From positions 1 to 20,348 of IMG/VR virus record IMGVR_UViG_3300049216_000076: 20,348 nucleotides of DNA. One strand, given 5' to 3'. A program made the position numbers and the translations under genes. The notes under the pieces were generated by a model. It saw nothing but the letters and a program-made list of their open reading frames with translations. It made no database searches and was not told the origin of the DNA. Origin of the DNA: a virus. The first letter of the stretch is position 1. Each line of letters opens with the position of its first letter. Shown here piece by piece: positions 1,871 through 20,348 of this stretch.

Positions 1871-2932
1871 ATGGAATCGGTTCTCAATGTCTTCAACCAG
1901 GACGCCTTCTCGGTCCTGGAGCTCTCGAAAGCAATCGACCTGGTCCCCATCAAGTGGGGCCGCATCGGCGAGCTCGACGTGTTCCCCGAACAGGGCGTCG
2001 AGACGACCGCGGTCATGGTCGAGTATCGCAACAACCAGCTGAACCTGCTGCCGACCAAACCGCGCGGGTCGCCCTCGAGCCTGGGCGGCGTCGGCCGGCG
2101 CTACGTCAAGAGCTTCACCATCCCGCACATCCCGCACGAGGACGTGGTGCGCGGCGACGAGATCCAGAACGTGCGCGCCTTCGGCCTGCCGGTCCGGATG
2201 GAGACGGTGATGAACGTGGTGAACCGCAAGCTGCTCACCATGGCGAACAAGCACGACATCACGCTCGAGCACCTGCGCGCCGGTGCCCTGCAGGGCATCA
2301 TCTACGACGCCGACAACGCGACCGTGATCCTGAACCTCTTCACCGAGTTCGGCATCACTGCGCCGCTGGTGAATTTCAATTTCGCCGGTCCGCCGACGGA
2401 CCTGCAGATGATCCAGAATTGCAACAAGATCAAGCGCTGGACCCAGGACCATCTGCTCGGCGACACCTTCGACCACGTCCACGCGCTCTGCTCGCCGTCC
2501 TTCTTCGACAACCTGATCGCCAACCCGACGGTGCTCGAGGCCTACAAGCTGTTCACGTCGCTGCAGGCGGTCAATCCGCTGCGCGACGACGTGCGCCGCA
2601 AGTTCGTCTGGCAGGACATCGTCTGGGAAGAGTATCGCGCCTATGCCGGTTACGAGGCGGCCGACGGCACGGTGACGACCGAGAATTTCATCGCCGACGG
2701 CGACTGCCGCTTCTTCCCGGTGGGCACGACCTTCTCGTTCGCGACCTACTTCGGGCCGCCGACCTTCCTCGAGGCCGTCAACGTGCCTGGCATGAAGCGC
2801 TATGCCAAGCAGGCGCCTGAGAAGTTCAACCGCTGGATCGACATCTACACCGAGTCGAACCCGTTGCCGATCTGCATGAAGCCGGCGCTGCTCATCCGCG
2901 GCACGGTGGGCACCGGCGCCACCAACATCTGA
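1871..2932 (+). CDS. Major capsid protein, lambda gpE family, 353 aa
   Basis: This is the main shell subunit of the head. The 353 residues match the usual length of the phage major capsid protein E family (lambda gpE has 341). Characteristic stretches include LVPIKWGRIGELDVF near residues 24-38, the VEYRNNQLNLLPTKPRG segment, KSFTIPHIPHEDVV, and the DDVRRKFVWQDIVWEEYRAY segment, followed by a C-terminal part in which FFPVGTTFSFATYFGPP and ESNPLPICMKPALLI are typical of this family. The ATG at 1871 is chosen because CGGAG lies a suitable distance upstream and because the protein then begins like other gpE proteins; the same open frame extends upstream only through the hairpin and decoration gene. 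A gene-specific hairpin lies on each side. Family assignment is confident. Confidence 0.93.
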   Translation: MESVLNVFNQDAFSVLELSKAIDLVPIKWGRIGELDVFPEQGVETTAVMVEYRNNQLNLLPTKPRGSPSSLGGVGRRYVKSFTIPHIPHEDVVRGDEIQNVRAFGLPVRMETVMNVVNRKLLTMANKHDITLEHLRAGALQGIIYDADNATVILNLFTEFGITAPLVNFNFAGPPTDLQMIQNCNKIKRWTQDHLLGDTFDHVHALCSPSFFDNLIANPTVLEAYKLFTSLQAVNPLRDDVRRKFVWQDIVWEEYRAYAGYEAADGTVTTENFIADGDCRFFPVGTTFSFATYFGPPTFLEAVNVPGMKRYAKQAPEKFNRWIDIYTESNPLPICMKPALLIRGTVGTGATNI

Positions 2933-2958
2933 GCGCTTCTTCGCTCACCTTTCCGGCA

Positions 2959-2989
2959 GGGGCCCGGCGGCGAACGCCGTTCGGGTCCC
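2959..2989 (+). terminator. Stem-loop downstream of the capsid gene
   Basis: GGGGCCCG at 2959-2966 pairs with CGGGTCCC at 2982-2989 (8 bp with one G:U), with an inner CGGC/GCCG stem and GAAC loop at 2968-2979. No clear T-run follows, so termination is doubtful; it could protect the 3' end of the abundant capsid mRNA. The inner part contains one copy of the CGAACGNCGTTCG palindrome (2971-2983). Confidence 0.4.
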
Positions 2990-3055
2990 TCCCGATTCCC
3001 CATGCGGCGCGCCCGTTGCCGTATCGGCAATCGTTCCACCTTAAGGAGAACCATC

Positions 3056-3238
3056 ATGCTGGTCCGTTTCAATCGCGAGTTCACCAAGCGCCTCGACGTC
3101 AACAAGGCGAAGACCTGGCCGCAGGGCTGGTCGGGCGAGCTCGACGACAAGATCGCCGCCGAGGCGGTGAAGGCCGGCGTTGCGATCGACATGACACCGA
3201 AGCCCGAACCGAAGGTCGACGCCAAGCCCAAGGAGTAG
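3056..3238 (+). CDS. Small protein of unknown function in the lambda FI position, 60 aa
   Basis: The ATG at 3056 follows AAGGAG at 3043-3048, an excellent ribosome binding site that rules out the upstream in-frame ATG at 3002. The product begins MLVRFNREFTKRL, continues with a WPQGWSGELDDKIAAEAVKAGVAI core, and ends in a Pro/Lys-rich charged tail. Small proteins of this pattern, with a basic beta-strand start and an AAxxAVxAGxA helix, often sit directly after phage capsid genes, but I know no established function. Its place corresponds to lambda FI, with no recognisable similarity to it. The stop lies three bases before the GTG of the next gene, whose ribosome binding site it contains, so the two are probably translationally coupled. 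Confidence 0.75.
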   Translation: MLVRFNREFTKRLDVNKAKTWPQGWSGELDDKIAAEAVKAGVAIDMTPKPEPKVDAKPKE

Positions 3239-3241
3239 CGC

Positions 3242-3616
3242 GTGGCCGACACCACCTGGCGCGACCTGGCCAACCTGGTCGACGGCGAGGTCGTGTCGGC
3301 CTTCGACGAGACGGGTGTCGAGCTGCAAAAGATGGCGAACGGCGTCGCGCAGGGGGCGCCGATTCCCTTGCCGTGCGAGTTCGAGCCCGCCTATGTCGAC
3401 GAGCGCCTGGTGGACGGCCAGGTGGTGAGCACGACCCGGCCGGCGGCCTGGTTGCACAATGACGACCTCGCCAAGGCGGCCACGACGGTCGCGGTCAATG
3501 ATCGGCTGATCCTGACGATCGGCCCGAGCGCCGGAACCTATACCGTCGACTCGCTCGAGCCGAACAACGACCGCACCGGCGTCATGCTGCGGCTCAAGGT
3601 GTCCAAGACGTCGTAA
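3242..3616 (+). CDS. Probable head-tail joining protein (lambda FII-like / Gifsy-2-like), 124 aa
   Basis: The GTG at 3242 follows AAGGAG at 3229-3234 with good spacing. The C-terminal half shows the pattern of head-tail connector proteins of the FII/Gifsy-2 group: a segment with RPAAWLHNDDLAKA, a strand DRLILTI, then GTYTVDSLEPNNDRTGVMLRLKV, which matches the usual 'low-complexity domain, Y-x-V, Asp-x-x-G, L-x-L' ending. In lambda, FII attaches to the portal-completed head and forms the docking site for the tail. The gene lies between the capsid module and the tail-terminator candidate, exactly where such a joiner is expected. Sequence resemblance is modest, so the call depends on both pattern and position. 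Confidence 0.65.
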   Translation: MADTTWRDLANLVDGEVVSAFDETGVELQKMANGVAQGAPIPLPCEFEPAYVDERLVDGQVVSTTRPAAWLHNDDLAKAATTVAVNDRLILTIGPSAGTYTVDSLEPNNDRTGVMLRLKVSKTS

Positions 3617-3637
3617 TCGCCGGACCAGGAGCGACCG

Positions 3638-4240
3638 ATGCCGCCACCGCCGCCCCTCTTTTACGGCGAGACGCTGGCGCAGGAGGCGATCACGCGAGTC
3701 CAGGCCGCGATCGCGGCCGCCCCGGCCGGGAGCGCCTTCGTCGGCCTCTATTTCATGCAGAACCGCTGGCAGGAAGTGCCCGACGGCACCCTGAAAGCGC
3801 TCTCCATTCACTTCGCCGGCGAGCGCGGCGCCGGCATGAACCGGCACATCCCGCAGTTCGAGCTCACCAGCTCGCTGCACATCAACGCCTACGCCGCGGT
3901 CGGCCGCGAGGACGGCGTCAATCCCGACGTCCTGTCGTCGCAAATCGCGCGCGCGGTGCTCGAGCTCTTGCTCGAGGACACGACCTACCTGCAGCTCTTC
4001 GCCTGGGTCGAGGATTACGACTTCGAGAAGGCGGACGCCACGATCGGCAAGGACGCCACGCGCTACGACTCGGTGGTCTTCACCATCAAGCTCGAGCTCA
4101 AGGGCGGCCAGACGATCTACGCGCCGGCCGTGCCGGCCGCGGCGACGCCGCTGCAGGTCGTCGACACGCAACTGACGCCGACCATCGACGGCGAGGCGGC
4201 CGATATCATGGTCGAGCAGGAAATCGAGCTGCCGCAATAG
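3638..4240 (+). CDS. Probable tail terminator/completion protein (Mu gp37 position), 200 aa
   Basis: Located between the head-tail joiner and the DUF2635-sheath pair, this is the position of Mu gp37 (DUF1834) or the lambda gpU/Z group. Those proteins cap the tail tube and provide the head-binding face. The protein has an alpha/beta appearance: an N-terminal helix with ITRVQAAIAAA, strands with ELTSSLHINAYAAV, a long helix DVLSSQIARAVLELLLED, and strands ending VVFTIKLEL, consistent with the tail terminator fold. The ATG at 3638 has AGGAG at 3627-3631, six bases upstream, so the start is well supported. This makes residues 2-6 five consecutive prolines, an unusual feature that would stall ribosomes without EF-P. 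Function is inferred mainly from context. Confidence 0.6.
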   Translation: MPPPPPLFYGETLAQEAITRVQAAIAAAPAGSAFVGLYFMQNRWQEVPDGTLKALSIHFAGERGAGMNRHIPQFELTSSLHINAYAAVGREDGVNPDVLSSQIARAVLELLLEDTTYLQLFAWVEDYDFEKADATIGKDATRYDSVVFTIKLELKGGQTIYAPAVPAAATPLQVVDTQLTPTIDGEAADIMVEQEIELPQ

Positions 4241-4250
4241 ACGAGGTCCC

Positions 4251-4484
4251 ATGCTCAAGAAGTATTTCACGCCCGGTACGACGACGATCGACGGCAAGGT
4301 CGTGCCGCTGAAAATCCCGCACCCGCAAACCCGCAATATCGTGCCGGAAGAGGGCATGTGGGTCGCGGACAATCCGTACTGGCATCGCCTGGTGGCGAGC
4401 GGCGACGGCACCCTGGCCGACACAGCGCCGTCAGGCAGCGATGGCGCGATGGCGCCGGCGCCGGAAGGGCCCACCACCACCTGA
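4251..4484 (+). CDS. DUF2635 protein (Mu gp38-like), 77 aa
   Basis: The central part, with KIPHPQTRNIVPEEGMWV followed by DNPYWHRLVASGD, matches the DUF2635 signature (Pro-rich start, 'LPeeGxxV', 'YWxRRLxxGD'). This family almost always lies directly before the contractile tail sheath gene, as Mu gp38 lies before L. Its role is not established; a small structural or assembly factor of the tail is likely. The C-terminal 20 residues are a low-complexity Ser/Gly/Pro/Thr extension beyond the conserved domain. The ATG at 4251 is 10 bases after the preceding stop, with GAGG at 4243-4246. Confidence 0.8.
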   Translation: MLKKYFTPGTTTIDGKVVPLKIPHPQTRNIVPEEGMWVADNPYWHRLVASGDGTLADTAPSGSDGAMAPAPEGPTTT

Positions 4485-4531
4485 CGAGCGTGCCCGGCGC
4501 GCGCGGTTCAACCCCTTGAGAGGATTTCGCC

Positions 4532-6049
4532 ATGTTGGACATTCCCTTCAACCAGATCCCGAGCGCGCTGCGTCTGCCGGGGGCCTTCATCGAAATCGAC
4601 GCCTCCAGGGCCGGCCGCTCGTTCGACCCGGGGCGGTGCCTCCTGATCGGCCAGGCCTCGGCGATCGCCTTGCCGGCGGTGGCGAACACGCCGCTGCCGA
4701 TCGGCTCGAAGAACGACGCCGACGCCGCCTTCGGCGCGGGTTCGATCCTCTCGAACATGGTGGCCGCCTGGCGCGCGGCCGACCCGTTCGGCCTCATCAA
4801 TTGCCTGCCGATCGCCGACGCCGGCGGCGGCGTGGCCGCGACCGGCACCATCACCGTGACCGCCGCGGCGACCGGTCCGGGCTCCATCCCGATCTATGTC
4901 GGCGACACCAAGGTGCTGGTGGCGGTGGCCGGCACCGAGACGATCAACCAGACGGCGACGGCGATCGCGGCGGCGATCAACGCCAACCCCGACCTGCCGG
5001 TGACGGCGGCCGCGGTCAACGCGGTGGTGACGCTCACGGCGCGGAACAAGGGCACGCTGGGCAACGATATCCAGCTCGCGCTCGCCTATCTCGGCGCGCC
5101 GGCAGGCGAGGTCCTGCCGCCGACCTTCGCCGCGGCAATCGTCGCCATGGGCGGCGCCGTCGCCGGCGTCAACGACCCGGATATCACGGCCGCGCTCGCC
5201 AACCTGGGCGACACCACCTACGACTACATCGTCATGGCGTTCACCGACGCCACGAACATGACGGCCGCGGCCAACTTCATGAACGCCGCGACCGAGGGGC
5301 GCTGGGCCTACGACAAGATGCTGTGGGGTCATGTCTTCACCGTCAAGCGCGCGACCTACGCCAACCTGGTGACCTACGGCCTCGGCCGCAACGATCCGCA
5401 CATTTCGGTGCTCGGCGTCTACCAGACGCAGACCACGATTTGGAAATGGATCGCCGCCGCAGTCGGCGTCTCGGCCATCGCGCTGCGCAACGATCCGGCG
5501 CGCCCGGTCCAGGGCATCCAGATCCCCGGCGTCATGGCGCCGCCGATCGGCTCGGCGGGCCTGTTCACCAAGACCGAGCGGCAGGCGCTTCTCTGGTCCG
5601 GCATCTCGACCTACACGGTCGACCAGTACGGCAACTGCTACGTCGAGCGCCTGATTTCGACCTACCAGCTCAACCAGAACGACATCCCGGACGACGCCTG
5701 GCTGTCGGTCGAGAAGAACTTCACGCTGATGGCGGTCAACCGCCGCCTGCGCGCCAACCTGCTGGCCGACTTCCCGCGCTACAAGCTGGCGGCTGACGGC
5801 ACGCGCATCGCGCCCGGCGCGGCCGTCACCACGCCCGGCAAGCTGCGCGGCTGGCTCGTCGCGCAACTGCGCATCATGGAAGAGCGTGACGGCTGGCTGC
5901 AGAACGTCGACGCCTTCAAGGACCAGGTGCTCGTCCAGATCAACGGCAATAACCCGGACCGGGTCGACATGCTGTTCCCTCCCTCGCTCATCGGCCAGCT
6001 CCGCACCTTCGCGGTGCTCAACCAGTTCCATATCTACCCGACACCGTAG
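4532..6049 (+). CDS. Contractile tail sheath protein (Mu gpL family), 505 aa
   Basis: This protein polymerises around the tail tube and contracts on infection. The N-terminus (IPFNQIPSALRLPGAFIEID) is the classic Mu-like sheath start, with a Pro-Gly before the first beta strand. Residues about 108-190 form a small inserted domain rich in Ala/Thr/Val that includes IPIYVGDTKVLVAVAGTET. The conserved core follows, with the C-terminal stretch VQINGNNPDRVDMLFPPS, then QLRTFAVLNQFHIYP, which forms the strand-exchange end typical of gpL. The length is normal for the family (Mu L, 495). The ATG at 4532 follows AGAGGA. A large hairpin follows before the tube gene. Confidence 0.95.
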   Translation: MLDIPFNQIPSALRLPGAFIEIDASRAGRSFDPGRCLLIGQASAIALPAVANTPLPIGSKNDADAAFGAGSILSNMVAAWRAADPFGLINCLPIADAGGGVAATGTITVTAAATGPGSIPIYVGDTKVLVAVAGTETINQTATAIAAAINANPDLPVTAAAVNAVVTLTARNKGTLGNDIQLALAYLGAPAGEVLPPTFAAAIVAMGGAVAGVNDPDITAALANLGDTTYDYIVMAFTDATNMTAAANFMNAATEGRWAYDKMLWGHVFTVKRATYANLVTYGLGRNDPHISVLGVYQTQTTIWKWIAAAVGVSAIALRNDPARPVQGIQIPGVMAPPIGSAGLFTKTERQALLWSGISTYTVDQYGNCYVERLISTYQLNQNDIPDDAWLSVEKNFTLMAVNRRLRANLLADFPRYKLAADGTRIAPGAAVTTPGKLRGWLVAQLRIMEERDGWLQNVDAFKDQVLVQINGNNPDRVDMLFPPSLIGQLRTFAVLNQFHIYPTP

Positions 6050-12181: not shown

Positions 12182-13333
12182 ATGCCTTTCGCGCGGCCTT
12201 CCCTCGGCGATCTCTGGACCCGCATCGGCGCGCAGTGGCGCGCCAACTATCCCGGCGCCGATATCTCGTCGAAGAAGTCGCCCGACCGCGCCGTCATTGC
12301 CACGATCGCGCGCTCGACCGACGAGGACCTCACCTTCGTCGAGTGGCTGGCCAAACAGCTCTTTCCCTTCTCGGCCGCGACCGAGTATCTCGAGCGCTGG
12401 GCGGGCTTCAAAGGCCTCAAGCGCGGCCAGGCCCCGCAGGCGGCCGGGCAGATCTCGTTCGCCGGCGGCACGCCGGGCTACACCGCGGCGGCGGGCACCG
12501 TAATGCAGGACCCGAACGGCGTTCGGGTGTCCTTCGCGGCGGATTGCACGATCGCCGAGGACGGCACGGCCACGGCCAGCGCCGTGGCGGTGAACGGCGG
12601 CGCCGACGGCAATATCGGGCCGGGCGTCGTCATGACCTTCGTCGGCACGCCGGCGGGCTTCCCCGACACCGGCCTGGTGGTCGACAACGCGGGCGTGGGC
12701 TTCTCGGGCGGTGACGGGGCGGAAAGCGACGCGCAATTGATGCTGCGCACGCAGCGCCGCTTCGCGCAGCCCAGCTTCGGCGGCAACCAGCACGACTGGG
12801 AGAACGCCGCGCTCGCCGTGCCCGGCGTCACCCGCGTCTACAGCCTGGCCGCGACCCCGACTCCCGGCGCCGTGACGCTCTACCCGTTGTTCGACGCCTT
12901 GCGCGCCAACGGCATCCCGGTCGGCACCGACGCCTGGTTCCGGCCTGGCACGGCGCCGAGCTCGGGCAGCGGCGGGGACGGCGACCAGCTCACGGTGCTG
13001 AACACGCTGATCGGCGCGGGCAGCCTCACGCCGCGGCCGGTATGCGCCTCGCTCTTCGTCAAGGCCTTCACGCCGGTCGCCCTCAATTTCACGATTCACG
13101 GCCTGGCGGTCGCCAATGACGCGGTCAAGGCCGCGATCGCGACCGAGATCGCCAAGATGCTGGTGGCCAAGCCGCCCGAGACGGCGGCGCAAGGCTACAC
13201 GATCTACCAGGAATGGGTCGCCGCGGCGGTGGCGCAGGCCGCGGGCGTCAAGAACTTCGACCTGCCGGGCCTCGGCGATACGGCGGTGGCCGGCGGCACG
13301 CTCCTGGTGCCGGGCGTCATCACGTACACATAG
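12182..13333 (+). CDS. Baseplate J / gp47-like protein, 383 aa
   Basis: This is a baseplate wedge protein of the gp47/J group (Mu gp47, PBSX XkdT, P2 J). It shows the expected N-terminus MPFARPSLGDLWTRIGAQW, a helix STDEDLTFVEWLAKQLFPF, the beta domain with APQAAGQISFAGGTPG and GTVMQDPNGVRVSF, a GADGNIGPGVVMTFVG turn region, and the core signature GGDGAESDAQLMLRTQRRFAQPSFGGNQHDWENAAL in shortened form (GGDGAESD, FGGNQHDWE), which precedes VPGVTRVYSL. The ATG at 12182 follows GGGGGAG. A 9-bp-arm palindrome occurs inside it at 12510-12528. Confidence 0.93.
   Translation: MPFARPSLGDLWTRIGAQWRANYPGADISSKKSPDRAVIATIARSTDEDLTFVEWLAKQLFPFSAATEYLERWAGFKGLKRGQAPQAAGQISFAGGTPGYTAAAGTVMQDPNGVRVSFAADCTIAEDGTATASAVAVNGGADGNIGPGVVMTFVGTPAGFPDTGLVVDNAGVGFSGGDGAESDAQLMLRTQRRFAQPSFGGNQHDWENAALAVPGVTRVYSLAATPTPGAVTLYPLFDALRANGIPVGTDAWFRPGTAPSSGSGGDGDQLTVLNTLIGAGSLTPRPVCASLFVKAFTPVALNFTIHGLAVANDAVKAAIATEIAKMLVAKPPETAAQGYTIYQEWVAAAVAQAAGVKNFDLPGLGDTAVAGGTLLVPGVITYT
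12510..12528. repeat. Palindrome with 9-bp arms inside gp47; core CGAACGNCGTTCG found four times in the window
   Basis: ACCCGAACG and CGTTCGGGT flank a single G. The 13-base core recurs at 2971-2983 and 6091-6103 (intergenic hairpins) and at 9241-9253 (inside the gpN-like gene). Its function is unknown; it could be a hairpin seed, a protein-binding site or a chance enrichment in high-GC DNA. Confidence 0.6.
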
Positions 13334-13352
13334 CAACCGCGCGGGAAGTGCG

Positions 13353-13949
13353 ATGGCGCCTGCTCCTGACCCGAGTTTTGACCAATGGTGGCAGGCGACG
13401 GCCGACCTTCTGCCGCGTGGCCTTCTGTGGGCGCGCCGGCAGACCTCGAACCTCGGCAAGCTCGTCGGCGCGATCGCGCAGGAGCGGATGCTGCGCCATC
13501 AGCGCAAGCTCATCCTGCTCAGCACCGAGTCGGTGCCGACCAGCGCCGTCGAGCTCCTGCCGGAATGGGAGCAGGCGGCGGGCCGGCCGGATCCCTGTCT
13601 GGCGGCGCCGGTCGGCCTCGAGCAGCGCTGGGCGGCGCTGGCCGACGTCTATTTCGCCGATCATCCGCCGACGCCAGACAACATGGTGGCGTGGGCGCTT
13701 TCGGCCGGCTGGAACATCACCATCCGCGAGCAGCTCAGTTTCGTCGCCGGCGTGTCGATCGCGGGCGACCCGGCCGGCGAAGACGACAACGTCTGGGTCG
13801 TCACGGTCGGCGGCCAGGTTCGGCACTTCTTCAAGGCCGGCGAGAATGTCGGCGGCGATCCCCTCTGGGATTTCCCCGACCTCTCGACGCTCGAGTGCAT
13901 CCTGCGTCGCGCCAATCCCGGGCATTTGCTCGTCTTCTTCACGATCTAG
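13353..13949 (+). CDS. Mu gp48 / YmfQ-like baseplate protein (DUF2313), 198 aa
   Basis: The family DUF2313 is recognised from the N-terminal LLPRGLLWARRQTSNLGKLV segment, the ELLPEWEQAAGRPDPC motif at about residues 67-82, and a C-terminal beta part with FKAGENVGGDPLWDFPD, then LECILRRANPGH. Proteins of this group join the baseplate to the tail fibre (Mu gp48 before the fibre gene S). Here it also sits between gp47 and the first fibre gene. The ATG at 13353 is 19 bases after the gp47 stop, with GGGAAG upstream. The TAG stop is part of the ribosome binding site for the following gene (TAGGAG). Confidence 0.88.
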   Translation: MAPAPDPSFDQWWQATADLLPRGLLWARRQTSNLGKLVGAIAQERMLRHQRKLILLSTESVPTSAVELLPEWEQAAGRPDPCLAAPVGLEQRWAALADVYFADHPPTPDNMVAWALSAGWNITIREQLSFVAGVSIAGDPAGEDDNVWVVTVGGQVRHFFKAGENVGGDPLWDFPDLSTLECILRRANPGHLLVFFTI

Positions 13950-13958
13950 GAGTGCGCC

Positions 13959-15038
13959 GTGCATCGCATCGACTCTCAGAATAACGTCAATGCACTGCCT
14001 GCACCGCTCGCCGGCGTCAGCGCGCCCGGCTACTTCAACAATGTGGTCGGCGCCGGTGCGGGCACCGTCGTCGATCCCGACTGGTTGAACAGCACCCAGG
14101 AAGAGCTGGTCGCGATCGTCCTCGCCGCCGGCCTGGCACCCGACAAGGCGAACAACGCCCAGGTCCTCGCCGCGCTGCGGGCGCTGTTCTCTCCCGGCCA
14201 TGGCCAATGCCGGCTGGTCTATGTGAGCGGCGTCCAGCTCTCGTTGATGCCGTTCAACGGGAACGCCCTGCGGGTGAACGGCAAGATCTACGGCATCCCC
14301 GCCGGCGGCATCGCGATCGCCAACGCCGGAGTTGAAGTCGCCGGCGTCGCCGGCCAGAACCTGGCCGCGTCAACGGACTACCTGCTTTATGTGAAGGACG
14401 ACGGCGCCGGCAACCTGGTGCCGTCCTTCTGGCCGGTCGCGGGCGGCCACATGACGGACACCACCGTCGGCAATGCCGGCGTCGAGGTGCGCAACAATGG
14501 CGGCGTCGCGGATTCGACGCGCACCCTTGTGGGTCTGGTCGGCACCGCCGGCGGCAGCGCCTTTTCGGACACTGACAGCGCGCGCCTGTTGCTGTCGTGG
14601 TTCAACCCGCGGCCCGCGCGCTCGCGCAGCTTCTTCACACCGGGCTCAGTGTCGACGGCGAGCGCCACGGCGGTCGAGCTGTCGGCGACCATCCGAAACT
14701 ACTTCCTCGCCTGGTCGAATACGGAGGTTGCTTTCCAGGTCAACGGGTCGGTCAGCTCGAGCGCGGTCGGCGGAAGCCCGCAGACCGCGGTCGGCTTCGA
14801 TGGCAATGCCCCCGAGATCGAAAGCGGGTCGTTCAACGAGCCGAGCGGCGGCGGCATGACCGGCAACCTTGCCTTCGCCGGCCGCAAGACCGGTCTCACC
14901 GAGGGCCGCCACTACGCCACGCTGTTCGGTTCCAATTCCGGCGGCGCCGGCGGCACGGGGCAATGGCAGGGCGGCAACGCGGCGATCGGCGCCACCAACA
15001 ATGCGCCCTGCGAGATCACCCTCACGATCGGAGGATAG
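13959..15038 (+). CDS. Tail fibre protein, 359 aa
   Basis: The GTG at 13959 follows AGGAG at 13948-13952 by six bases. The N-terminus carries a pattern common in tail fibres, VDPDWLNSTQEELVAIVLAA followed by GLAPDKANNAQVLAALRALF (about residues 39-75), which is the baseplate-attachment side. A repeat-like pair of segments, IANAGVEVAG (about 114-124) and VGNAGVEVRN (about 168-177), lies in the shaft. The C-terminal domain, rich in Gly/Ser/Asn with TEGRHYATLFGSNSGGAGG, is probably the distal tip that binds the host surface. The gene follows gp48 as the fibre gene does in Mu. No intramolecular chaperone motif is apparent. The exact receptor cannot be read from sequence. Confidence 0.75.
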   Translation: MHRIDSQNNVNALPAPLAGVSAPGYFNNVVGAGAGTVVDPDWLNSTQEELVAIVLAAGLAPDKANNAQVLAALRALFSPGHGQCRLVYVSGVQLSLMPFNGNALRVNGKIYGIPAGGIAIANAGVEVAGVAGQNLAASTDYLLYVKDDGAGNLVPSFWPVAGGHMTDTTVGNAGVEVRNNGGVADSTRTLVGLVGTAGGSAFSDTDSARLLLSWFNPRPARSRSFFTPGSVSTASATAVELSATIRNYFLAWSNTEVAFQVNGSVSSSAVGGSPQTAVGFDGNAPEIESGSFNEPSGGGMTGNLAFAGRKTGLTEGRHYATLFGSNSGGAGGTGQWQGGNAAIGATNNAPCEITLTIGG

Positions 15039-15041
15039 GGT

Positions 15042-15536
15042 ATGGCACAGAAGGCAATCGGTCCGAACTTCGCCAACGAGGTCGAGGCCGCCGGCCTGAG
15101 CGGCCTGCCGTTCACCTGGTCGGTCGATGGCGAGATCCTGTACGGCGCGGCCATCACGGCGCCGCAGCGTGCCCAGATCGACGCGCTCTATGCCGCGCAC
15201 GACCCGGCACGCCCCGACCCGCGCGCCGAAGCGGCGAAACTTCTCGCAGGAGGCCTTGCGATCACGTCGGTCGGCACGCCGGTATTGAACGGAACCTACG
15301 GCACCGGGATGCAGGACGAGATCAACATCACCGGCCTGCAGGCCGCCGTGCAGGCCAACGTCTTTCCGGGCTGGTACCGGGACGTAACGGGCGTGCGCAA
15401 GGTCATGACCGGTGCGCAGTTCACGGCGATCGCAACGGCGGCCTTGAACTTCATCGCCGCCGTCGAGGACGCCATGCATGTCGCCCTCGAGGGTGGTGCC
15501 TGGGTCGCGCCGCCCGCTCAAGCCAACCTGCCGTGA
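15042..15536 (+). CDS. DUF4376-like fibre-associated protein, 164 aa
   Basis: The ATG at 15042 follows GGAGG at 15030-15034, which overlaps the fibre stop region. The C-terminal half has the layout of DUF4376 proteins: GTPVLNGTYGTGMQDEINIT, then a helix with AAVQANVF, a GWYRDVTGVRKVMTGAQFTA segment and a final helix with TAALNFIAAVED. DUF4376 is often found next to or fused with phage tail fibre and fibre assembly genes. The N-terminal part (FANEVEAAGLSGLPFTWSV, then APQRAQIDALYAAHDPA) I do not recognise. It lies between two fibre genes, so an adaptor or assembly role for fibres is likely but unproven. The next gene starts 10 bases after its stop. Confidence 0.65.
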   Translation: MAQKAIGPNFANEVEAAGLSGLPFTWSVDGEILYGAAITAPQRAQIDALYAAHDPARPDPRAEAAKLLAGGLAITSVGTPVLNGTYGTGMQDEINITGLQAAVQANVFPGWYRDVTGVRKVMTGAQFTAIATAALNFIAAVEDAMHVALEGGAWVAPPAQANLP

Positions 15537-15546
15537 GGCACAGCGC

Positions 15547-18500
15547 ATGCTGAAGCTCCTTCGCTCCCTCGCCACGCTCTTCCTGGTCGTGGCGCTGCCG
15601 GCCTTGGCCGATCCTCTCGGCAAGCCGACCGCGCTCACCGCGCAGATGATTTGCGATGCGCTGGGTTATTGCCCGGGCCAAGGCACATGGTACTCGCTCG
15701 GCCGCGCGCCGCTCTCGAGCGAAGGCAGGCCGGGCGATCTCTGGCTGCGCACCGATACGGGCGACATCTACAAGCGCGGAACATCCACCTGGTCCGTCAT
15801 CGTCAACGTCACCGGCGCGTCGCTGTTGAACGGCAGCGGCGCGCCCTCCGGTGGCACCGGCAAGGACGGCGATTTCTACGTCGATACCACGGCCCATCTT
15901 CTCTACGGGCCGCGCGCCGCGGGAACGTGGCCGGGCAGCTCGCTGCTGTTCGGTCAGCCGAGCGGAACATCGGTCGTCAATCCCGGCACCGGCGTGCTGG
16001 AGGCAGTGCTCCCGGTCCAGACCGTCAGCGGCGCGTCGAAGGTCTTCACGGCCGCCGACTTCTACAAGAAGACCCGCCGCACGAATGGCGGCTCGGGCAT
16101 GGCCGACACGTTGCCCGACTCCACTGCAACGGGTCTGGTCAACGGCACGCGCCTCAACATCGCGAATGTCGACACGACCGGCAATCTCACGCTCGCGCCC
16201 GGCGCCGGGACGTCGCTTTGCTCGAGCTGCGGCACGATCGTGCCGGGCCGCGTCCTCCTGCTGGTCTGGGACCAACCCAATGCCACCTGGCGCGCGGATG
16301 CCAACTCGTCGTCGGCGTGGAGCGCCGCACTCGACAGCCTCGCGGCGACCACGAACGTCGCCTACAGCTTCCTCGTACAGACGACGCTTGGCGCCTACGA
16401 ATGGGTTGCGGGCGTCACCGTCCAGACCAACATCGCGGCGCTCCGCGCCAACACCACACCGTGGCCGACGATCCATGTGCAGGGCTTCTATGCCCTGGCC
16501 GATGGCGGCGGCGGCGACTTCGAGTACGACCCGTCCGACACGACCTCGAGCGACGACGGATGCACGATCTACGTCGACGCATCGAGCCATCGCTACAAGC
16601 GCACCGACGCCAAGGCGATCGACATCCGCCAGTGCGGCGCCAAGGACGACTTCACGGCCATTCTGTCCAGCACCGTCACGATCTCGAACGGCTCGCACGC
16701 CCTCGCGGTTTCCGGCGCTTCCTTCGCCTCGAGCGACGTCGGCAAGTCCATTGCAGTGCAGGGTGCAGGCGCCGCCGGCGGCTTCCTGGCGACGACGATT
16801 TCGGCCTATACGAGCCCGACGCAAGTCACCCTGACCGCGGCGGCCTCGACCGGAGTCTCGGGCACGTCGAACGTCTGGTACGGCACGAACAATGCGACCG
16901 CGCTCAACAAAGCCACGGCTGCGGCCGGCAGCCGGTGCGTCCTTGTTCCGGCGGCCGCCCATGGCTTCCTGACCGACGATGCGGTCAGTCTGCCGCACAA
17001 TGGATGCTTCTCCGGCGTCAGCCGCATCACGTCGACGATCTGGGTCATGCCGACGTTCAACCTGTCGGCGCTCGGCGTGCTGGTCATGCCGACGACGCAG
17101 CCGGGGCCGGCGATCAAGAACATCGGCATCCAGGCGGTCCAGACCGATACCTCGACCTTCGCCAACCTGATCGCCTATCCGCCGGCCGTGCTCGGCCATG
17201 GCGCGTCGATGGCGACGGTCGACGGGTTCCGGTGCGTGGCGTACCTGACCTGCATCGACTGGCGCGGCAACATGGGCCGCACCTGGCTCAATCTGCTCGA
17301 ACTATCGCCGTTGCAATACGGCGTGCTCGTCGACGGTTCGCAAGATCTGGTGAAGATCGAGAACGTCAACTTCGTCGACTTCGGCCTCACCAGCAATCAG
17401 GCGTCGATCTTCTACGGCAATGCCATCGGGCTCGATTTTGGCCGCGCAGATTCGTGCTTCATCAGCAACGTGCAGTCGCTGGCGAACATCGCGATGGCCT
17501 TCCACTACTCATCGGCCTGGGATGGCACCGCCGCCTACTGCAACATCAAGAACGTTAACATCGATCAAGGCCTGGGCCTGCAGGTGTCGGCGGGCAACCA
17601 CACCATCAGCACCTTCAAGGATGGCGTCGGAAACAACCCGAACACCGACGGCGTGATCGCGCTGGCACAAGGCGGCACGTCGTTCGGTTCGATACTGGTC
17701 GGCCAAGGCGGAACCGCCGTCAATCCCATCATCAGGATGGGAGTCGTCCAGACGTGCTCGGCGTGCAAGATCGACAACGGCGCCGGCGGCTCGGGCAACA
17801 TCCTGACGGTCGGTGGGACCACCACCGGGTACTTCACCGCCTTCATGCAGGTGTTCGGCACCGGCGTGACCGCCAACACGAAAATCACCAAGCAACTGAC
17901 CGGGCCGTCCGGTTGCACGCTCTACTCGACGACGTACTGCCCGCCGGGTGGCGCGGGCACCTATCAGGTCGACCATAACCAGAACGTCGGCACGGAGGCG
18001 ATGACCGCAAGGTCGGACGGCAGCGCCTATCTGACGATCAGCTCGCTGCTCGACGACAACCACAACTCCATCGACAACACGCTGATCTCCATCGACGGCA
18101 GCACGACGTTCGCGACTTTCGCGATCGGCAATGTCGTCATCTCGCAGCCGAGCGGGACCTACAACAAGGATGTCATCTACATCGGCTCCGCTTCTGGCAG
18201 CTTGAGCGGCGTGACCTTCACGCCGGGCGGCAGCATCGGCACCGGCTATGGCATCCATGTCGGGACGGCGAATAATCAGCTCTCGTTCTCGAACCTCAAT
18301 CTCAACGGCTGGGCGACGAGCTTCCCGAGCGGGCAATTCGCGCAGAGCTTCCTTTCCTCGTTGAACGCCGCAACCTTGTCCGGCAACGGCAGCATGCAGT
18401 TCGGCGCCGGCGGCCCGGTCCTCAAATGGGGCACCGGCACCACGAGCGCCAGCGTCACCGCAACCGTCACCTTCGGCACGGCCTTCCCCAACAACCTTTG

Positions 18501-18651
18501 GTACGCGAGCGCGACATCGACCAACAGCGGCACGACGTTCGGTTGCTCGATGAACACCTACAGCTGGAGCACCGCAGGCTTCACGACGTCGGTCATGAGC
18601 CCGTGCGGCGCCGGCTCCAACACCTTCACCTGGTACGCCTTCGGGAATTGA
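15547..18651 (+). CDS. Large tailspike/tail fibre protein with N-terminal signal-peptide-like segment, 1034 aa
   Basis: The ATG at 15547 has GAGG at 15535-15538, eight bases upstream; an in-frame ATG at 15478 lies inside the previous gene and has no such site. Residues 1-21 (MLKLLRSLATLFLVVALPALA) have a basic n-region, hydrophobic core and A-L-A cleavage site, an apparent Sec signal. Residues about 70-122 carry two fibre-type motifs (GDLWLRTDTGDIYKRG and GDFYVDTTAHLLYGP). DGGGGDFEYDP at about 319 and IDIRQCGAKDD at 358-368 match the tailspike linker and the start of a pectate-lyase-like beta-helix that runs to about 940. Residues 959-1034 (from LKWGTG to the end FTWYAFGN) resemble the gp53-like C-terminal fibre domain. 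It has 18 cysteines, including CSSC (225-228) and CSAC (737-740). A receptor-binding or polysaccharide-degrading tailspike is most likely; the catalytic residues are not clear. Confidence 0.8.
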   Translation: MLKLLRSLATLFLVVALPALADPLGKPTALTAQMICDALGYCPGQGTWYSLGRAPLSSEGRPGDLWLRTDTGDIYKRGTSTWSVIVNVTGASLLNGSGAPSGGTGKDGDFYVDTTAHLLYGPRAAGTWPGSSLLFGQPSGTSVVNPGTGVLEAVLPVQTVSGASKVFTAADFYKKTRRTNGGSGMADTLPDSTATGLVNGTRLNIANVDTTGNLTLAPGAGTSLCSSCGTIVPGRVLLLVWDQPNATWRADANSSSAWSAALDSLAATTNVAYSFLVQTTLGAYEWVAGVTVQTNIAALRANTTPWPTIHVQGFYALADGGGGDFEYDPSDTTSSDDGCTIYVDASSHRYKRTDAKAIDIRQCGAKDDFTAILSSTVTISNGSHALAVSGASFASSDVGKSIAVQGAGAAGGFLATTISAYTSPTQVTLTAAASTGVSGTSNVWYGTNNATALNKATAAAGSRCVLVPAAAHGFLTDDAVSLPHNGCFSGVSRITSTIWVMPTFNLSALGVLVMPTTQPGPAIKNIGIQAVQTDTSTFANLIAYPPAVLGHGASMATVDGFRCVAYLTCIDWRGNMGRTWLNLLELSPLQYGVLVDGSQDLVKIENVNFVDFGLTSNQASIFYGNAIGLDFGRADSCFISNVQSLANIAMAFHYSSAWDGTAAYCNIKNVNIDQGLGLQVSAGNHTISTFKDGVGNNPNTDGVIALAQGGTSFGSILVGQGGTAVNPIIRMGVVQTCSACKIDNGAGGSGNILTVGGTTTGYFTAFMQVFGTGVTANTKITKQLTGPSGCTLYSTTYCPPGGAGTYQVDHNQNVGTEAMTARSDGSAYLTISSLLDDNHNSIDNTLISIDGSTTFATFAIGNVVISQPSGTYNKDVIYIGSASGSLSGVTFTPGGSIGTGYGIHVGTANNQLSFSNLNLNGWATSFPSGQFAQSFLSSLNAATLSGNGSMQFGAGGPVLKWGTGTTSASVTATVTFGTAFPNNLWYASATSTNSGTTFGCSMNTYSWSTAGFTTSVMSPCGAGSNTFTWYAFGN

Positions 18652-18654
18652 GCC

Positions 18655-18969
18655 ATGGCCGGAGAAAACGGGAACGGCGACGGCCGGATGCGCCAGCTCG
18701 CCCGCAGCGAGATCGTGACCGCCTGGGCGCGCCTCTCGATGCTGACCGGGCCGCCGATCATCGCCGCCCTCGTCGGCGCGGTCGCGTGGTTCCTGGCCGG
18801 CATGTCGGCCGACATCAAGGAAGCCGCCAGGGTGCTCGCCGAATACAAGACCGCCGCGACAGCGAAGGCCGACGTCGCGGCTTCCGAGCTGAAGGATCAC
18901 AACCGGCGAATCGGCAACCTTGAAAGCAAGGTGTTCGGCTTCTCGCCGGTTCCGACCAACACGCCATAG
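18655..18969 (+). CDS. Small membrane protein with one helix and charged C-terminus, lysis-associated candidate, 104 aa
   Basis: The ATG at 18655 begins three bases after the tailspike stop. The protein has a short charged N-terminus, a single hydrophobic segment at about residues 28-49 (containing GPPIIAALVGAVAWFLAG), and a heptad-like helical C-terminal part with ADIKEAARVLAEYKTAATAKADVAASELKDH shortened here to its ends (ADIKEAA, ASELKDH), then RRIGNLESKVFG. I do not recognise a named family. The layout, directly before an endolysin gene, suggests a holin-like, XhlA-like or inner-membrane spanin-like function; it lacks the two to three helices of typical class I or II holins. No outer-membrane spanin lipoprotein was found overlapping it, which weakens the spanin reading. 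Confidence 0.55.
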   Translation: MAGENGNGDGRMRQLARSEIVTAWARLSMLTGPPIIAALVGAVAWFLAGMSADIKEAARVLAEYKTAATAKADVAASELKDHNRRIGNLESKVFGFSPVPTNTP

Positions 18970-19003: not shown

Positions 19004-19807
19004 ATGTGGAACTTCGGACTGTTCGATCCGGTGAGCTTTCGCGCGCCCGCGCGCAAGGTGACGCGGGTGTTCCTGCACTGCACCGACAGCGACAACGACG
19101 ATCTCAAGGGCGTCGGCCTCGTCGAGGAAGTCAACCGCTGGCACCTCGCCAACGGCTGGGCGGGCGTCGGCTATCACTTCCTCGTCGACAAGGCGGGGCA
19201 GGTGATGACCGGCCGGCCGCTCGAGCTGACGCCGGCGGCGCAGCTCGGCGAAGTGCCGCTCGTGCCACCTGACCAGGTCCATCTCGGCAACGTCGCGACG
19301 ATCGCCATCAGCACGCACGGCAGCAAGGCGTGGACGCCGGCCGGCATGGAGGCGACCCGCCGGCTCTGCAACGTGATCGACGGCGTCTACCTCGCTGCCG
19401 GCGCGCGCGTCACCTTCCACGGCCATTGCGAGATCGATCCCCGGCCGTGCCCGGTCTACCGCTACCGGGCGCTGCTCGGGCTCGATGCGGCGGGGCATTT
19501 CGATGCCGTCGAGTTCACGCCGGCCGACATGGTCGCTTCGCTCTCCACCGTCGTCAGCGATGCGCCGCACGCCATGCCGAAGCTCGGCATCGTCGATGAG
19601 GTGGAAGCGCGGGTCGGGCCGCGAAACCTCTCCGAGGGCTGCCGCGGATCGGACGTCGAGGATCTGCAGCGCCGCATCGGCATCGCGCCGGCGGATGGCT
19701 GGTTTGGCGCCCAAACCGCGCGCGCCGTCATGGACTGGCAGGCAGGCCACGGCCTTGAGGCCGACGGCGTCGTCGGTCCGAAGACGCGCTCCCTTCTGGC
19801 GCTGTAG
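19004..19807 (+). CDS. Endolysin: N-acetylmuramoyl-L-alanine amidase with C-terminal peptidoglycan-binding domain, 267 aa
   Basis: This zinc amidase of the Amidase_2/PGRP fold cuts the bond between N-acetylmuramic acid and L-Ala. The first domain (about residues 18-160) has FLHCTDS with zinc ligand His25, GYHFLV with Tyr57, and HGHCEIDPRPCP with His141 and Cys149, whose 8-residue spacing matches His122 and Cys130 of T7 lysozyme. The position of the catalytic Lys128 in T7 is Arg147 here. Residues about 206-267 form a PG_binding_1 domain (GSDVEDLQRRIGI, then ADGWFGAQTARAVMDWQ and LEADGVVGPKTRSLL). There is no signal peptide, so export needs a holin. The ATG at 19004 is chosen for GAGG six bases upstream and because longer in-frame starts give a Thr/Arg-rich non-protein-like lead that overlaps the upstream gene. 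Confidence 0.93.
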   Translation: MWNFGLFDPVSFRAPARKVTRVFLHCTDSDNDDLKGVGLVEEVNRWHLANGWAGVGYHFLVDKAGQVMTGRPLELTPAAQLGEVPLVPPDQVHLGNVATIAISTHGSKAWTPAGMEATRRLCNVIDGVYLAAGARVTFHGHCEIDPRPCPVYRYRALLGLDAAGHFDAVEFTPADMVASLSTVVSDAPHAMPKLGIVDEVEARVGPRNLSEGCRGSDVEDLQRRIGIAPADGWFGAQTARAVMDWQAGHGLEADGVVGPKTRSLLAL

Positions 19808-19889
19808 CGCCCGAGTTCGCGCCGCCAGACCGGCCACCCGGCGGAACTGCGAGTTAAACCGGCCAACCCCAAACCAAAGGACCATGACC

Positions 19890-20348
19890 ATGAAGATGCT
19901 TCGCCGTATCGGCGTCGCGTGCGCGGCCGCTTGCGCGGCCGCGTGCGCGCTCGCCCTCGCTGCCGTTCCCCTTGTGCCGGCCCTGGCCGACACCGCGGCG
20001 CCTTCGACCGTCGTCGACTTCGGCCCGTTCCTTCACGACGTCGTCATGCCGCTTGCCGTCGCCCTCGTCGGCGTCGGTGTGACCTGGCTCGGGGCCAGGG
20101 CGAACACCTGGCTCGGCCTGCAGTCCAACAGCCAGCTCGGCGGCGTCATCGAGGTCGCGCTTCAGAACGGGCTTGCCTTCGCGCAGTCCAGGCTCGCCGT
20201 GGCGCTTCCCGCCGGTCAGCCGATCCCGGTCGACGTCAAGAACCAGATCCTCGCTACGGCGGCGAACTATGCGCTGGCGCATGTGCCGGATGCCCTGAAG
20301 ATGCTCGGCGTCGACCAGGCCACGCTCCTGCAGAAGCTCGAGGCCAGG
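19890..20348 (+). CDS. Signal-peptide membrane protein, LLH-type holin-like, 3'-truncated by window edge
   Basis: The frame is open from 19884 or 19890 to the last base of the window. AAAGG ends at 19880, which gives a 9-base spacing to the ATG at 19890 but only 3 to the one at 19884, so 19890 is preferred. From 19890 the first 33 residues have a KMLRR n-region, an Ala/Cys-rich core and a PALA cleavage site. A further hydrophobic stretch (VVMPLAVALVGVGVTWLGA) is the likely membrane helix. The rest (LGGVIEVALQNGLAFAQ, then ATAANYALAHVPDALKMLG and DQATLLQKLEAR) resembles the soluble part of LLH-family phage holins (Phage_holin_6_1), with 'A-x-x-Y-A-x-x-H-x-P-D-x-L-x-x-x-G'. It follows the endolysin gene, so a lysis role, possibly as signal-arrest holin, is reasonable but not shown. 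Confidence 0.7.
   Translation, partial: MKMLRRIGVACAAACAAACALALAAVPLVPALADTAAPSTVVDFGPFLHDVVMPLAVALVGVGVTWLGARANTWLGLQSNSQLGGVIEVALQNGLAFAQSRLAVALPAGQPIPVDVKNQILATAANYALAHVPDALKMLGVDQATLLQKLEAR
19920..19949 (+). repeat. 12-bp tandem repeat in the holin-like signal peptide
   Basis: TGCGCGGCCGCT (19920-19931) and TGCGCGGCCGCG (19932-19943) are followed by a partial third unit TGCGCG. Each unit encodes Cys-Ala-Ala-Ala, giving C-AAA-C-AAA-C in the signal-peptide core. Unit number could vary by slippage. Confidence 0.7.

Follow-up and report, generated by a model that had tools for sequence, protein, structure and literature searches.

We identify, in the late region of a Mu-like phage, a gene that may encode a second spike, one that would mature in the periplasm and be added late to progeny particles; we put the probability of this reading at roughly 0.43. 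The gene product combines a predicted signal peptide, a predicted beta-helix body, a fibre-type C-terminus and nine apparent cysteine pairs, and its gene lies within the late block of tail and lysis genes. Tailed phages are thought to finish their particles in the cytoplasm, and export signals on tail spikes are hence unexpected. Export itself is nevertheless very probable, and the case for an exported spike is well supported, because a syntenic relative keeps the signal peptide, related fibres have the same AxA-type junction and the cysteines appear paired.

The window (the whole stretch of DNA analysed, a virus record of 20,348 bases) is a partial late region in which the genes, ordered by eye, run from protease-scaffold through capsid, sheath, tube, tape measure and baseplate to lysis genes (Table 1). 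The spike gene has a tail-gene setting, being preceded by genes for baseplate J and a baseplate wedge. The DUF4376-like gene ends 10 nt before it and a small membrane protein gene begins 3 nt after it, and it is therefore very likely a late, co-transcribed gene. A consensus scan for sigma-70-type sites found no promoter-like site upstream. The small membrane protein and its counterpart in L003, a phage with a related endolysin, end alike (VFGFxP) and may be a holin or spanin part; neither has a family match above the cut-off. The last gene in the window (19884-20348; counterpart L003:10277-10837) encodes a phrog_17576 protein, a family of unassigned function, that is holin-like by position; its N-terminus strongly resembles a signal peptide and leads into a hydrophobic span.

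Table 1. Features of the spike gene and its surroundings in the window.
Feature	Coordinates	Strand	Details
Baseplate J	12182..13333	+	PF04865; puts spike gene in tail module
Baseplate wedge gene	13332-13949		Family match
Ordinary cytosolic tail fibre of the phage	13959..15038	+	phrog_1858/1833
DUF4376-like gene, possible fibre accessory	15042..15536	+	PF14301, 21 bits, below the cut-off of 25
Spike ribosome-binding site, GAGG	15535..15538	+	8 nt ahead of ATG; read from sequence
Spike gene, complete, nine neighbouring cysteine pairs	15547..18651	+	1,034 aa
Predicted signal peptide, residues 1-21, cut between ALA and DP	15547..15609	+	Rule score 5.35; kept in L014
Mature N-terminus, DPLGKPTALTAQMICDALGYCP, first cysteine pair 36/42	15610..15675	+	Common to L014; alignments
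Fibre-stem module, residues 46-133	15682..15945	+	BLAST; as in collagen-like fibre L060 and Sinorhizobium phage Phosso
Tailspike neck, residues 291-373	16417..16665	+	Cysteine pair 339/363 common to L014
Right-handed beta-helix body, residues 357-770	16615..17856	+	phrog_32881 pectin lyase; AlphaFold; fold search
Gp53-like_C tail-fibre C-terminal domain, residues 955-1034	18409..18648	+	PF21882, 28 bits; cut-off 24.9
Single-membrane-span protein	18655..18969	+	Counterpart L003 8650-8982, compared by eye
Endolysin, amidase and peptidoglycan-binding domain	19004..19807	+	PF01510, PF01471

The N-terminus of the spike, MLKLLRSLATLFLVVALPALA followed by DP, has the canonical Sec/signal-peptidase-I form: a net positive n-region, a 12-residue hydrophobic core and small residues at -3 and -1, with ALA before the Asp at the cut site, all within the first 21 residues. 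Signal peptides were called with a rule-based Sec/SPI score, the looser cut-off of which (3.5) was passed by 11 of 117 annotated or called genes. None of 2,842 internal 60-mers of phage proteins matched the 5.35 of the spike. This value was reached by 33 of 3,000 shuffles (1.1%) of the first 44 residues of the spike itself, so composition accounts for part of the score. The first-pass annotation had described an open reading frame with this start and stop, a good ribosome-binding site in front of it and a basic-hydrophobic start ending in ALA-DP, and our re-reading of 15547-18651 agrees on each.

The syntenic relative, L014, is a prophage in a MAG labelled Enhydrobacter aerosaccus (Alphaproteobacteria). 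As in the window, the order is baseplate J, a Gp48-like gene, a fibre and then a spike, here of 930 residues. The two spikes share gene position, a signal peptide, the mature N-terminal motif with its cysteine pair and the neck cysteine pair, and they differ in body and C-terminus, the L014 protein having no PF21882 match. In alignments of the two, the best-conserved part is formed by the residues that follow the predicted cut (DxxGxPxxLTAxxICxALGxCP), whereas the signal-peptide segment drifts. The 12 mature cysteines of the L014 spike form six neighbouring pairs (P = 4 × 10−4). This post-cut pattern occurs in 1 of 385 genomes of the class of L014, namely its own, and the exact motif was found in a comparable setting in no other viral contig; a variant, ICxALGYTP, gave unrelated matches only. 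The viral and genome collections contained no near relatives of the whole spike or of baseplate J. A collagen-like fibre with a signal peptide (L060:1459-2814) is encoded in a genome from the family to which L014 belongs.

Signal peptides recur on tail-type fibres of other phages, and the premise of the first-pass annotation that virion-type proteins normally lack them is too strong. Cultured examples are gp49 of Burkholderia phage Bcep781, the database record of which reads ‘possible tail fiber; possible signal peptide domain’, BcepC6B gp19, PBR31 orf035 and BgManors32 UEW68612. Relatives of the beta-helix body occur at 26 viral loci; several have a signal peptide (L097/L098, L101, L106) and others do not. 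In a census of the motif PGQVLTAAxLN in IMG/VR, a signal peptide directly precedes the motif in 21 of 35 viral loci (20 by score, and L145, the Bcep43 fibre, after its start was extended as in Bcep781), with several duplicates among the 35 and two short 87-residue proteins that are not fibres (L125 and L136) among the 21. The other 14 proteins start close to the motif, for example MAPFVPGQVLTAAQLN. An identical fibre N-terminus thus exists with and without a predicted signal peptide, and cleavage would regenerate it; the mature form, QFxPGQVLTAAxLN, resembles the start of cytosolic fibres, and one phage (L150) has both forms. Signal-peptide fibres lie amid baseplate genes in Bcep781, L133, L144 and L149, and some have tips that match those of virion fibres from Klebsiella phages. 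The window phage, L014, Bcep781, BcepC6B and PBR31 each encode an ordinary cytosolic fibre or spike as well. The trait is not general, since the 385 genomes of the class of L014 gave eight PF21882 fibre matches, none with a signal peptide among the open reading frames that were inspected; KS10 gp48, in a similar position in a Mu-like phage, also lacks one. The class of signal-peptide fibres looks under-recognised.

Several related arrangements were seen along the way. Adjacent fibre or spike genes with one signal peptide each occur at L098:2077-3147 and L098:3440-5050, and L097 is arranged alike. In L003, a fibre-like gene (2240-4078) with a clear signal peptide is adjacent to a beta-helix-like gene (4082-5848) with a weaker one, and both proteins have even cysteine numbers. 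The 87-residue proteins (L125:3978-4010, L136:3660-3692) carry a signal peptide, PGQVLTAAQLN and then a charged coiled-coil-like tail, and in L106 a small signal-peptide protein (3264-3770) lies directly ahead of the exported spike gene. PBR31 gp40 (L119:5188-5835) is an esterase encoded close to the lysis genes, and its authors noted that it has a signal peptide (PMC10975493).

Two readings would deny that the N-terminal segment is a cleaved export signal. It is very improbable that the signal peptide is spurious, the product of a wrong start codon or of chance hydrophobic composition. An in-frame ATG lies 69 nt upstream and the shuffles show what composition can do, but the upstream start would overlap the preceding gene, the chosen start comes with a ribosome-binding site of its own, the corresponding start in L014 follows an independent AGGAG and the AxA-type junction recurs in many other fibres. 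It is improbable, if less so, that the segment stays uncleaved as a membrane anchor or as a hydrophobic plug attaching the fibre to the tail. Although the segment is short and hydrophobic, and tail proteins can have hydrophobic N-termini, a plug would not need the features of the junction: among 20 distinct signal-peptide fibres, Ala occupies -1 in all 20 and -3 in 17, and the next residue is Q, D, T or G (Gln in 17 of 20). The drift of the segment beside conserved post-cut residues, and the start of cytosolic counterparts near the post-cut motif, also stand against it. The first-pass annotation had offered three options, and two of them, an exported surface protein and a spike matured in the periplasm, survive with export well supported; its third, a membrane-anchoring segment, is disfavoured, because of the invariant Ala at -1 and because mature N-termini resemble ordinary cytosolic fibre starts.

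The count of 18 and the CxxC pairs given by the first-pass annotation are correct, and the cysteines fall into nine neighbouring pairs (36/42, 225/228, 339/363, 464/487, 563/569, 637/665, 737/740, 790/798 and 1000/1020), with gaps of 3 to 28 residues and two CxxC motifs, at 225 and 737. Their summed gap is 121, whereas random placement would give about 480 (P about 1 × 10−4 or less; by shuffling of the gaps, P = 1.5 × 10−4). In the AlphaFold model, 464/487, 563/569 and 637/665 lie on neighbouring strands. When the spike is aligned with 17 relatives (L014 and 16 body homologues from viral contigs), its cysteine columns are otherwise almost empty, the exceptions being Cys363 (L014, L091), Cys637 (L102) and Cys1000 (L101). 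Pairing is absent (P about 0.6) from ctn9Y15 and BcepMigl gp58, two body relatives that lack a signal peptide. Across 20 signal-peptide fibres, cysteines are paired more closely than chance (Fisher P = 1.9 × 10−10) and across 17 fibres without a signal peptide they are not (P = 0.077); both sets were put together by hand, the 20 include several that are interrelated, and weak and odd-numbered cases were kept in. The cysteine count is odd or very low in some signal-peptide fibres (L060, L143, L101), which counts against the periplasmic second-spike reading.

The body and C-terminus are those of a tail spike. AlphaFold confidence (pLDDT) is mostly 73-98 over residues 440-690, and the beta-helix-like body described in the first-pass annotation is a right-handed beta-helix with a structural Z of about 32 to the Sf6 tailspike and phi29 gp12 and similar values to polysaccharide-active enzymes, for example, K5A lyase, AlgE4 and RbmB. 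The fibre-type C-terminus it had proposed matches Gp53-like_C above the cut-off. Residues 22-290 gave no family match, and no virion-attachment domain was recognised at the mature N-terminus; attachment regions are variable, and the model has low confidence there. Pfam gave only PF21882 at the C-terminus, with no outer-membrane anchor of the autotransporter type, and no similarity was found between the spike and the ordinary fibre of the phage. The first-pass annotation had named homologues lacking the hydrophobic segment as evidence against its reading. BcepMigl gp58 and ctn9Y15 literally lack it, but this reflects domain swapping, and L014 keeps its signal peptide.

Under the periplasmic second-spike reading, the protein would be synthesised together with the other late proteins, exported through Sec and trimmed to Asp22 at a signal-peptidase-I site after Ala21. 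Oxidation of the cysteine pairs in the periplasm would then staple successive turns and loops of the beta-helix, and the spike would stay there, separate from the particles being built in the cytoplasm, up to the point at which the compartments were merged by holin, endolysin and outer-membrane disruption. In the most speculative step, it would join the progeny as a late-added receptor-binding or polysaccharide-binding spike, much as finished P22 heads can accept tailspikes in vitro.

The placement of relatives in baseplate clusters, the fibre stems and the virion-type tips argue for a tail-module protein. Attachment to the virion is opposed by the absence of a recognised attachment domain and by the ordinary fibre of the same phage, which makes the spike dispensable for giving the virion a fibre; body homologues in other phages, moreover, manage without signal peptide or cysteine pairs, which speaks against the second-spike reading. 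Weighing these points, we hold late addition only tentatively and consider it almost as probable that the exported spike never joins the particle and acts elsewhere, whether within the periplasm, at the outer surface or as a free protein in the lysate. It would bind or trim host surface polysaccharide, which would keep progeny from being trapped on debris or stop rival phages from adsorbing. Sec export would give the signal peptide a reason, the body resembles the polysaccharide-active enzymes, the gene adjoins lysis genes, no attachment domain was found and the fibre is an extra one in every phage in which this could be checked. Against such a role, fibre stem and tip domains are kept and relatives lie within baseplate gene clusters, Pfam found no outer-membrane anchor family, the sigma-70-type scan revealed no promoter of its own, and the spike and the main fibre have no common domain, although one might be expected if the spike masked the same receptor. 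Masking of the receptor of the main fibre was not supported, as the shared-domain comparison gave none.

If signal-peptide spikes recur, either certain phages complete their particles with oxidised spikes once lysis has occurred, or tail-derived proteins are deployed against the host envelope before lysis. The broader proposal is that in many phages of Gram-negative bacteria a second receptor-binding spike matures outside the cytoplasm, being exported by Sec, folded with disulfides in the periplasm and joined to progeny only at lysis. This is a conjecture to which we give rather less credence than to late addition here; were it true, tail assembly would not be confined to the cytoplasm. For annotation, such proteins may be mistaken for host secreted proteins or for ordinary virion fibres.

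A signal peptide on a tail fibre is not categorically new, because the Bcep781 database record already notes one. In the open-access literature, we found no paper on signal peptides of tail fibres as a class or tied to cysteine pairing; the signal peptides in the phage papers found there belong to lysins, spanins or an esterase only. PblA and PblB of Streptococcus mitis phage SM1 are tail-type proteins on the host surface; unlike the window spike, they are not known to carry a signal peptide, and lysis brings them to the surface. The Sec route of the host is also taken by other phage late proteins, among them secreted and signal-anchor-release endolysins such as Lys44 of fOg44 (PMC6116005), which are lysis enzymes and not tail-type spikes. 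The Sf6 tailspike, phi29 gp12 and BcepMigl gp58 share the right-handed beta-helix, and BcepMigl gp58 and ctn9Y15 are direct sequence relatives of the window spike that differ from it in lacking a signal peptide and cysteine pairs and in their N-terminal regions. Bcep781 gp49 (and Bcep43 gp48) is, like the window spike, encoded by a tail-fibre gene with a Sec signal peptide beside an ordinary fibre, and its 14 mature cysteines form seven neighbouring pairs; it differs in body sequence, adjoins an annotated baseplate wedge gene rather than lysis genes, and comes from a cultured phage.
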